Source: a bacterium | GTDB taxonomy: Bacteria; BMS3Abin14 | Assembly (NCBI GenBank): GCA_029210965.1 | Contig: JARGFZ010000022.1 | Span: 1-44,463, forward strand | DNA length: 44,463 bases | Reading direction: 5' to 3' | In this document: one piece after another, positions 6,838 through 10,061 of the stretch | How the letters are laid out: each line of letters opens with the position of its first letter | Position numbering within the stretch: position 1 is the first letter of the stretch | Notes under the pieces: generated by a model | What the model saw: only the letters and a program-made list of their open reading frames with translations | Told to the model about the DNA's origin: nothing | Database searches by the model: none | Translations under genes and position numbers: made by a program

Positions 6838-7446
6838 ATGTCACAAAAGGTGTATGAAGTCACAATTTGGGCACGTGGTGTGTTCCAGGACATGGAAGGA
6901 CGACACGCGACCCTGCTGATGGCAAACGCTGCTGACCTTGGCGGCAAGTTTGTTCAGGCATGGGATGATTATGCAGACCTTCCGGACCGTGTTGGCGTAC
7001 CGCTTCGCAAGTACGTTCGCCTTGCCGACGAAGAGATCGAGATGCGCTTCGTCTACGTGAACATCAACCCCTCGCTGGTTGTCCTCATGGACGATACCAT
7101 CGTCAAGGGTATGAACATCCTCAGGGGCATGCCCCAGGGTGGTTCCCTCGTGGTTAACACCAAGAGGACACCTGATGAGATCCTGGCCTTTATCCCCAAC
7201 AAGGAGCTTCTGGCCAACGTCGTGTGCGTGGATGCCAGCGGCCTTGCTGCTGATACCGCCATCGATTTCATGGGGTCCGAGGGTGGTGTGGAAGTTGCCG
7301 CCGTAGGCGCCGGCATTTCGGCACCCCTGGTTGGCGCAGCCGCCAAGGTCTGCGACAGGTTCATCATTGAGAACGTTGTGAAAGTCGCTTCCAACAAGAG
7401 TGCTGCGCAGGCCGGTTTTGATGCCGCACAGGTAAAAGCCCTGTAG
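6838..7446 (+). CDS. Oxalate oxidoreductase-type 2-oxoacid:ferredoxin oxidoreductase, gamma subunit
   Basis: This 202-residue protein belongs to the gamma (PorG/POR) family. The usual GRGGQG-type opening is replaced by ARGVFQDMEGRHA (residues about 13-25), so it is clearly off the pyruvate-enzyme branch. The SD AAGGAGG lies just before the ATG. It heads a tight gamma-delta-alpha-beta run (15-base gap to delta). In the well-studied Moorella oxalate oxidoreductase, as I recall, gamma and delta form one chain of about 315 residues; here 202 and 110 residues are separate. Identification as oxalate-specific comes mainly from the alpha subunit. Confidence 0.8.
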   Translation: MSQKVYEVTIWARGVFQDMEGRHATLLMANAADLGGKFVQAWDDYADLPDRVGVPLRKYVRLADEEIEMRFVYVNINPSLVVLMDDTIVKGMNILRGMPQGGSLVVNTKRTPDEILAFIPNKELLANVVCVDASGLAADTAIDFMGSEGGVEVAAVGAGISAPLVGAAAKVCDRFIIENVVKVASNKSAAQAGFDAAQVKAL

Positions 7447-7461
7447 TTGAAAGGAGAATAA

Positions 7462-7795
7462 TATGTCCAGATTTATTATCCCGAAGCACCTTGAGGTCCC
7501 CCTGGGAGCCTGTCTGCCTGCACCGGTCAAGGAGCAGCCTGGCATGATCACCGGCAACTGGCGGACCGAGCGGCCTGTTATTGATCACGAGGCCTGCACG
7601 ACTTGTCTGAACTGCTTCATCTATTGCCCGGATGCCTGCTGGCATTTGGATGACAAGACCGAGCAGATGGTGTGGAACGCCGATTACTGCAAGGGCTGCA
7701 TGATTTGTGTCAACGAGTGCCCTGCGAACTGTCTCTCGACGGTAAACGAGCTGGAGTTCCCCGACGGCGTTGTTCGTCTGGAGAAACCCTTCTAA
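7462..7795 (+). CDS. 2-oxoacid:ferredoxin oxidoreductase, delta (2x[4Fe-4S]) subunit
   Basis: This 110-residue ferredoxin-like subunit (ATG at 7463) has two complete [4Fe-4S] motifs, CTTCLNCFIYCPDAC (from about residue 45) and CKGCMICVNECPANC (from about residue 76). It would carry electrons from the catalytic alpha/beta core to external ferredoxin. The first 40 residues (PLGACLPAPVKEQPGMITGNWRTERP region) are the usual delta-subunit arm wrapping the complex. The gene follows gamma by 16 bases with an AAGGAG site and precedes alpha by 15 bases with GAGGAGG. Confidence 0.87.
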
Positions 7796-7810
7796 GAGGA
7801 GGTTTACAAG

Positions 7811-9016
7811 ATGGCAAAAGAAGTATTTTACAGCGGTTGCGCTGCTGCGGCATACGGTGCCAAAGACGCAAGAGTCGAAGTGATCAGCTCGTACCCCATC
7901 CGCCCTTACACGGGCATCATGATGGAGCTGTCGAAGCTGGTTGCCAACGGTGAACTCGATGCAGAGTTCGTCCTGGGCGAAGGTGAGCATGCCCAGGTTT
8001 CCATCGCTTATGGAGCCTCCGCGGCTGGCGCCAGGGCCTACACCGGTAGTTCGGGTGTCGGCGTTGTTTACGCCATGGAGTGCTACTCTCCCGCCGCCGG
8101 CGGGCGCCTGCCCTGTCAGATGGCCATTGCCGACCGAGCCCTTGACCCTCCAGGTGACTTCGGGTCCGAGCACACGGACGTCATGAGTGCCAGGGACCAG
8201 GGTTGGATCATGGGTTGGGCCGAGTCCCCCCAGGAAGTCTATGACAACACGATCATGTACTACAGGATCGGCGAGGACCACAGGGTTCAGCTGCCCCAGT
8301 TCTGCTGCCAGGATGGTTACTTTGTTTCCCACATCCCCGGCAAAATGCAGATGGAAGACCAGAAGGCTGTTGATGCTTTCCTTCCGGCCTACAACCCGCC
8401 CCACCCCTTGAACCCCCAGAAGCCCATTAACCACGGTCCCCAGATTTTTCCGGACCAGGGTTCTGCCATTAACGTTCAGCGCGCCGTGGCCTTCGACGAT
8501 GTCGAAGCAGTCATCTCCGAAGTTGTGACAGACTACAACAAGGCTTTCGGCCGAGAGTACAGCCCCTTCGTGGACGAGTATATGATGGACGATGCTGATA
8601 TCTGCTTCTTCCTTCAGGGCGGCCACGCCCGGACCGCCCGTTATGCCGTGAACCACCTGCGCAAACAGGGCGTCAAGGTCGGTGTTTCCAGGCTTCGCTT
8701 CATGAGGCCTTTCCCCACGGCGGCTGTTGCGGCATCCCTGTCCAAGGTCAAGGCTGTCGGGGTCATCGAGACGAACACCTCTTACGGCGGAGTCACCCGC
8801 GGCGGCAACATCGCCCCCGAGGCCAGGGCTGCGTGCTATCCCCTGGACAAGAGGCCGGTCATCACCTCCTTCATGGCTGGTCTGGGCGGCGAGATCGTTA
8901 CGCTCAACGAGTTCTACTCCATGGCCAAGGTTCTGTCCGATGCAGTCAAGAGCGGGAAAGCCAACGCTTCCTACTGGATGAACTTTGAGAAGGAAGTTCT
9001 GGATACCCACAAGTAG
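7811..9016 (+). CDS. Oxalate oxidoreductase alpha subunit
   Basis: The 401-residue alpha subunit helps form the thiamine-diphosphate active site. Pyruvate enzymes have YPITP at the substrate-carboxylate loop; here residues 28-34 read YPIRPYT, placing Arg at 31. The second substrate loop reads ADRALDPPGDFGSEHTD with Arg109, Asp112, Asp116 and Phe117. Arg31, Arg109, the Asp112/Asp116 switch loop and Phe117 are, from memory of the Moorella thermoacetica crystal-structure work, the features that fit the enzyme to dianionic oxalate, and the numbering coincides without gaps. The expected reaction is oxalate to 2 CO2 plus two low-potential electrons and no CoA. A glutamate-rich GEGEHAQVS segment and GGxARTA region fit the OFOR fold. 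Confidence 0.85.
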   Translation: MAKEVFYSGCAAAAYGAKDARVEVISSYPIRPYTGIMMELSKLVANGELDAEFVLGEGEHAQVSIAYGASAAGARAYTGSSGVGVVYAMECYSPAAGGRLPCQMAIADRALDPPGDFGSEHTDVMSARDQGWIMGWAESPQEVYDNTIMYYRIGEDHRVQLPQFCCQDGYFVSHIPGKMQMEDQKAVDAFLPAYNPPHPLNPQKPINHGPQIFPDQGSAINVQRAVAFDDVEAVISEVVTDYNKAFGREYSPFVDEYMMDDADICFFLQGGHARTARYAVNHLRKQGVKVGVSRLRFMRPFPTAAVAASLSKVKAVGVIETNTSYGGVTRGGNIAPEARAACYPLDKRPVITSFMAGLGGEIVTLNEFYSMAKVLSDAVKSGKANASYWMNFEKEVLDTHK

Positions 9017-9030
9017 GGAGAGGCTTTCTT

Positions 9031-9060
9031 GACTTTGCCAAGGATTACGGTCCTGGCAAA
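9031..9060 (+). promoter_or_regulatory. Intercistronic hairpin between alpha and beta genes
   Basis: TTTGCCA (9034-9040) pairs with TGGCAAA (9054-9060), extended inward by GGA/TCC past one bulged A. It fills most of the otherwise unusual 64-base gap in an operon whose other gaps are about 15 bases. It may tune mRNA stability or translation of beta; there is no T-run, so it is not a classical terminator. Confidence 0.4.
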
Positions 9061-9080
9061 TTCGAAAGGAGAATAGGATA

Positions 9081-10061
9081 ATGGCGATAGAAGTAAAAAC
9101 GCAAAATCTGGAAATGGCAAAGTCGCTCCGACAGGTGAGCCAGGAGGAGCATTATGTTCCTGGACACCGGACCTGTCAGGGTTGCGGACCGGCTCTTGTC
9201 TATAAATTGGTTTCAAAGGCCACTGGCGGGAACGCTATCTTCCTCGGCCCCACCGGCTGCATGTACGTGGCCAACACAAGCTACCTTTGTGCTCCCTTTG
9301 CTTATCCGTGGATGCACACCCAGATCACCAACGGCGGCGCTGTTGCCTCGGGTATTGAGGCTGCCTACCAGGTGCTGATCCGGAAGGGCAAGTACAAGGG
9401 CGAGCTGCCCAGCATCGTCGTCATGGCTGGTGACGGTGGCGCCATCGATATCGGCCTCCAGGCCATGTCGGCCATGATGTATCGTGGCCACGACGCCCTG
9501 TTCGTCATGTATGATAACGAGTCCTACGCCAACACAGGCATCCAGGTCTCCCCGGCGACCCCTTACGGCGCCAACACGACCTTCACGCCTCCTGGCAAAA
9601 ACGTTCCCGAGGGCAGAGTGCTCTTCCCGAAGGATGCGCCTCAGCTGGTTATCGGTGGCCACCCGGCCGTTCACTTTGTTGCAACGGCTTCCGTTGCCTA
9701 CCCGGTGGACCTCATCAACAAGGTGCGCAGAGGGCTGAACTACAAGGGCCCCTCCTTCGTACACCTGCACGCCCCCTGCCCCAAGGGATGGCTGTTCCCG
9801 GCGCGGAAGACCATTGAAGTTGCCAAGCTGGCCATCCAGACAGGCATGTGGGTCAACTACACGTGGGAGAACGGCGAGTACACCTATGACCACACACCCA
9901 AAGAGTACAAGCCTGTCAAGGAGTACATGAAGGGTCAGTATCGCTTCAACCATCTTTCCGATGCTCATTACGCCAAGATGCAGGCCTTCATCGATGCCAG
10001 GCTCAAGGCTCCCGGCAAGCCTGTCGCAATTCCTGTGCAGGGTCCGAGAGAGCAGGCGTAG
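9081..10061 (+). CDS. Oxalate oxidoreductase beta subunit (ThDP-binding)
   Basis: This 326-residue subunit binds thiamine diphosphate and the proximal [4Fe-4S] cluster. Cluster ligands are Cys32, Cys35, Cys60 and probably Cys233 (in HAPCPKGW), the same spacing as in the C-terminal part of pyruvate:ferredoxin oxidoreductase. The ThDP/Mg motif is GDGGAIDIG (117-125) followed by DNESYANTG (145-153), whose Asn151 matches the conserved active-site Asn. The start has an AAGGAGAATAGGATA leader. It completes the four-subunit enzyme; the operon continues, after a 241-base gap, into a TTT transporter. Confidence 0.87.

Follow-up and report, generated by a model that had tools for sequence, protein, structure and literature searches.

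A probable oxalate-use operon encoding oxalate oxidoreductase next to a CDC48-type AAA ATPase

Does a four-gene operon in a 44,463-nucleotide window (the whole stretch of DNA that we analysed) encode an oxalate oxidoreductase (OOR) or a pyruvate enzyme, and what do the genes beside it contribute? The four ORFs, all on the + strand at positions 6838–10061 and separated by 16, 15 and 64 nt, encode the gamma, ferredoxin-type delta, alpha and beta subunits of a thiamine-dependent 2-oxoacid:ferredoxin oxidoreductase (Table 1). OOR is a known enzyme with NCBIfam models; as far as we found in the literature, it has been characterised so far in one acetogen only. We conclude that the four genes almost certainly encode an OOR, predicted to oxidise oxalate, the acid of kidney stones, anaerobically and independently of CoA to CO2, and consider it quite probable that the locus as a whole is an oxalate-use operon combining this enzyme with a tctCBA transporter, FadR/GntR control and a dedicated CDC48-type helper.

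Table 1. Positions in the window of the predicted OOR operon and the features beside it.
Feature	Position	Strand	Evidence
Sigma-70-like promoter, TTGACA-18-TATGTT	3498..3527	+	Consensus match only, score 10 of 12
Candidate operator palindrome TGGTCTGACCA (FadR/GntR type)	3529..3539	.	Directly after the -10
Second candidate operator palindrome TGGTCTGACCA	3574..3584	.	Upstream of the AAA gene
CDC48-type double AAA ATPase, OOR-linked clade	3619..6000	+	Pfam CDC48_N, CDC48_2, two AAA; tree
FadR-subfamily GntR regulator	6008..6790	+	Pfam FCD E 8e-32, GntR 8e-24; 7 nt after the AAA gene
Predicted OOR gamma subunit	6838..7446	+	About the N-terminal two thirds of Moorella OOR 'delta'; 5c4i_B residues 13–207, E 2e-48
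Predicted OOR delta subunit	7463..7795	+	Two CxxCxxCxxxC [4Fe-4S] motifs; about the C-terminal third of Moorella OOR 'delta'
Predicted OOR alpha subunit	7811..9016	+	YPIRP and RALDPPGDF substrate loops; NF045791 558 bits, cut-off 500; 5c4i_A E 9e-143; tree
Predicted OOR beta subunit	9081..10061	+	TPP motif GDG...N; C32, C35, C60, C233; 5c4i_C E 4e-145
beta-tctC intergenic hairpin	10062..10233	+	Folding z-score -3.9; no clear T-run
TctC-type periplasmic binding protein	10234..11277	+	Pfam TctC E 7e-31
TctB small membrane subunit	11382..11861	+	Pfam TctB E 1.6e-13
TctA large membrane subunit	12078..13598	+	Pfam TctA E 1.4e-138

The top PDB matches of alpha, beta and gamma, the three subunits covered by the PDB search, were all chains of 5c4i, the Moorella thermoacetica OOR (further structures 5exd and 5exe). 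Alpha aligned colinearly with Moorella OOR alpha, with an ungapped identity of 56% over residues 6–376; because the alignment begins 6 to 6 and involves no shift, residue numbers coincide between the two proteins, as the initial annotation had stated. The beta subunit scored 567 bits against NF045792, 23 bits short of the equivalog threshold of 590; despite this, OOR beta was its best family and by far its best PDB match. Gamma scored 200 bits against NF045790, a model of the fused Moorella delta whose cut-off of 230 is that for the fused protein, and delta corresponded to positions 227–315 of the same model. Thus, gamma and delta cover successive parts of NF045790, and each falls under its cut-off. 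The expectation that automatic annotation would call the enzyme a pyruvate synthase therefore fails for alpha, which exceeds the NCBIfam OOR cut-off, while beta, gamma and delta score below theirs. Moorella OOR has gamma and delta in one chain, whereas the window has two genes; we do not treat a single chain as a requirement for OOR, because both arrangements of these domains occur in the superfamily.

The substrate loops of alpha read Y28-P-I-R31-P and R109-A-L-D112-P-P-G-D116-F117, so that all residues named in the initial annotation are present and identical to those of Moorella. Their value as marks of OOR differs. R31, D112 and F117 occurred in 23/23 OOR-clade sequences and in 0/9 pyruvate-type sequences. 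D116 was present throughout the OOR clade, and one pyruvate-type sequence, L046, with T31, A112 and M117 at the other three positions, has it too. Arg109 was common to every pyruvate-type sequence aligned and hence is no evidence for oxalate; we rejected it as a diagnostic residue. The same arginine has been reported in DaPFOR and StOFOR, YPIRP is said to be peculiar to OOR and linked to the binding of oxalate, and Arg31 and Asp116 serve the 'bait and switch' mechanism of OOR (PMC5020499).

An ordinary ferredoxin oxidoreductase for pyruvate or another 2-oxoacid that merely resembles OOR is very improbable. Pyruvate:ferredoxin oxidoreductases (9bt4, 6cin, 1b0p) belong to the same superfamily and share the TPP motif, the Fe-S motifs and the Arg109 equivalent, and the PorA model still gave alpha 297 bits. 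By contrast, the OOR-alpha model gave 558 bits, and the PadG model, through whose HMM score the phenylglyoxylate enzyme was compared, gave 251 bits. YPITP, the motif of pyruvate:ferredoxin oxidoreductases, is replaced by YPIRP in the window, and those enzymes lack D112 and F117. The initial annotation had itself named a phylogenetic position within the pyruvate enzymes as the result that would count against it. In a maximum-likelihood tree of 36 sequences, for which the alpha ORF of each locus was the best match over all ORFs, as for the residue counts, alpha instead grouped with Moorella OOR with support of 100/99, and the genome's own POR, KGOR, VorB and OAFO alpha paralogues fell outside this clade. 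The OOR clade was present in all 200 bootstrap trees; outgroup branches were long. Those four enzymes, together with two IOR-like paralogues, are available to the organism for other 2-oxoacids. We reject a pyruvate-type reading on the HMMs, the residues and the tree together. We also weighed an OOR-clade enzyme whose substrate has changed from oxalate to a near analogue, such as glyoxylate or another small acid, and consider this unlikely. In the window alpha, L55 replaces an H shared by 21/22 other OOR-clade sequences, A193 replaces a P common to all of them, and there are a few such changes at otherwise conserved positions; moreover, GlcD/GlcF-type glycolate or lactate dehydrogenase genes lie close by (228–3066). 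Against such a shift, the residues described for oxalate binding are all intact and the same as in Moorella. The reading as an OOR acting on oxalate is thus preferred.

Several observations concern relatives of the enzyme. One sequence sister to the OOR clade (L044 / L056, G213) has YPIRP, R31, D112 and F117 but A116, and its gamma and delta form one ORF; it is possibly an intermediate, or an enzyme acting on a different substrate. This OOR-like locus has no AAA neighbour, and in L056 a TGGTCTGACCA site precedes the GntR gene by 31 nt. A search of a plasmid collection returned pyruvate-type relatives only, the best at 37%.

The ATPase, regulator and OOR genes look like one unit. The regulator carries both GntR and FCD domains and thus belongs to the FadR subfamily. 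The promoter-like site was one of the two top-scoring sites between positions 3000 and 14000, and the best on the + strand. Exact TGGTCTGACCA sites numbered two in the 44-kb window, as compared with 0.02 expected, and both lie upstream of the AAA gene. In most loci of the window's phylum, and likewise in L028, L029 and L055, exact TGGTCNGACCA sites precede the AAA gene by no more than ~180 nt; no exact palindrome was seen in the more distant L052, L053, L054, L064 and L065, or in L027, L030 and L031. The TGGTCNGACCA palindromes resemble FadR-type sites. Their location upstream of the AAA gene, with one directly after the promoter-like site, suggests that the AAA, GntR and OOR genes are likely to form one unit, and site position and conservation suggest that the GntR protein probably acts at TGGTCNGACCA as a putative operator. 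A genome-wide TGGTCNGACCA regulon was rejected: total counts were about those of the reversed control pattern, so we give weight to none but the clusters that lie locally before the AAA gene.

The first protein of this unit, of a type that acts as a protein-remodelling motor, combines a CDC48 N-domain with two AAA modules whose motifs are intact (Walker A GPPGTGKT and GPSGTGKT; Walker B; the pore loops KFYG/KWVG; RxGRFD in both modules), and its nearest solved structure is the VCP-like ATPase 5g4f (E 2.7e-180). It therefore resembles CDC48/VAT-type ATPases in its CDC48_N and CDC48_2 domains, AAA modules and pore loops, but differs in being tied to an OOR cluster and in forming a clade apart from the other bacterial CDC48s sampled, 19 in number. 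Of the 22 genomes with an OOR-clade alpha, 21 have the AAA gene next to GntR-OOR, the 22nd being a 4.5-kb contig that starts at gamma. In a sample of 395 genomes from G014's phylum (the named relatives found alongside G014 include Syntrophorhabdaceae), the best eleven AAA matches came from the ten OOR genomes and from G377, where the contig ends beside the gene; other homologues, mostly 43–50% identical, belong to a different clade (tree with 19 of them). G008, the one genome of the window's phylum without OOR, also lacks a full-length AAA gene.

Is this ATPase a helper of the enzyme, or an unrelated neighbour retained through slow genome rearrangement? Most of the loci belong to genomes that fall into a few related groups, and SDR, TerC and PPDK neighbours are partly conserved too, as expected of a mere neighbour. 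Nonetheless, adjacency is kept even where alpha is 59–66% and AAA 49–52% identical. In the window, the AAA gene and then the regulator gene stand directly upstream of OOR; in L052 these two are in swapped order and still beside OOR. The ORFs of the two overlap in L053, L054 and L065, the palindromes lie upstream of AAA, and the ATPase has a clade of its own. We therefore regard an unrelated neighbour as rather unlikely. Given this association, the ATPase may be a dedicated helper of OOR, most likely an assembly or repair unfoldase. The fuller proposal, that OOR outside Moorella has its own CDC48-type unfoldase, encoded first in the operon under the same regulator and assembling or rescuing the enzyme, is tentative, and we would put it at somewhat under even. 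It would be analogous to the rubisco activases CbbQ/CbbX and to NorQ, which are AAA+ proteins encoded in the operon of the enzyme that they serve; their AAA+ families differ from the CDC48 type, and the helper role in the window is putative. If true, an AAA family that is not known to behave like this would here supply an activase for a metabolic enzyme. Bacterial Cdc48s have been described as sporadic outside Actinobacteria (PMC6017811), and the conserved partner gives a testable role for some of them.

A second clade of bacterial CDC48-type ATPases (L079–L097) adjoins gas-vesicle genes: a Pfam-confirmed GvpL/GvpF gene was close by in 16/19 of these loci (1.5-kb flanks). The scanned neighbour was a sigma-54 activator in L089 and L095, and matched no family in L088. 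Within the window's genus, the OOR-linked ATPase has an N-terminal extension of ~70 residues. An IHDSR-type peptide in this extension also occurs as a repeat in an ORF of the same genome (window 3619–3830 and L005 16–150), which points to a simple repeat in the DNA that is being read as protein.

Downstream of the enzyme, TctC, TctB and TctA are encoded together, as in a tripartite tricarboxylate transporter (TTT). Such a transporter follows OOR in most loci; in G004 and G183 we found no TTT genes next to OOR, and in G251 they are located apart. Membership of the TctC family does not indicate which substrate is bound; we consider uptake of oxalate by tctCBA probable. A transcript shared with OOR is less sure, because a gap of 172 nt with a stable hairpin separates beta from tctC; the hairpin is a candidate attenuator or mRNA processing site. 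We found nothing relevant in the literature searched on OOR with tripartite transporters or on CDC48 with oxalate, and no earlier report, among searchable papers that included few subscription papers, of a split four-gene OOR in apparent non-acetogens or of a CDC48-type partner.

Of the 12 genomes of the window's phylum, 11 have an OOR alpha over the cut-off, as do 9 of the 395 genomes. G016 has a truncated OOR alpha: at its locus (L031 / L067, CP070783.1) the match covers only ~242 residues, AAA, GntR, gamma and delta are still there, and beta and tctC were not found downstream, which is gene decay or misassembly. Unlike Moorella, the window's phylum yielded no acetyl-CoA synthase beta (CdhC) in its 12 genomes; likewise, we found no dsrA in the nine genomes searched and no oxalyl-CoA decarboxylase (oxc) over cut-off in the 11 searched, all absences limited by the incompleteness of metagenome-assembled genomes. 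Sub-threshold oxc matches presumably represent related TPP enzymes. NiFe hydrogenase was found in 9/9 tested genomes, a COX1-type oxidase in 1/9, and FDH-like proteins, under cut-off, in tested genomes. Since acetyl-CoA synthase, dsrA and oxalyl-CoA decarboxylase were not found, the gene content of the locus and phylum looks like oxalate oxidation outside acetogenesis. The near-universal occurrence of OOR in this small uncultured group points to anaerobic oxalate oxidation in other lifestyles.

We propose that oxalate would be imported through tctCBA and joined to thiamine pyrophosphate by the four-subunit OOR, where, by homology, Arg31 and Arg109 would hold it and the mobile D112-D116-F117 loop would work it as described for Moorella. 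Two CO2 would be released, and two low-potential electrons would pass via the [4Fe-4S] clusters to ferredoxin. The FadR/GntR protein probably represses the unit from the TGGTCNGACCA sites beside the promoter, and oxalate or a related acid may let it go. The CDC48-type ATPase would most likely assemble or re-activate the oxygen-sensitive TPP/Fe-S complex. Because no acetyl-CoA synthase was found, the probable electron sinks are hydrogenase, formate-dehydrogenase-like or biosynthetic ferredoxin-dependent reactions rather than acetogenesis.

Other genes also lie near the operon. The GlcD/GlcF-type genes upstream of AAA have counterparts in L054 (9841–12723), and the two sets are 28–31% identical mutually. 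ThiC, pyruvate phosphate dikinase (PPDK) and a GTP-type PEP carboxykinase are encoded at 16891–23675 in the window, and PPDK and TerC adjoin OOR in several relatives as well.
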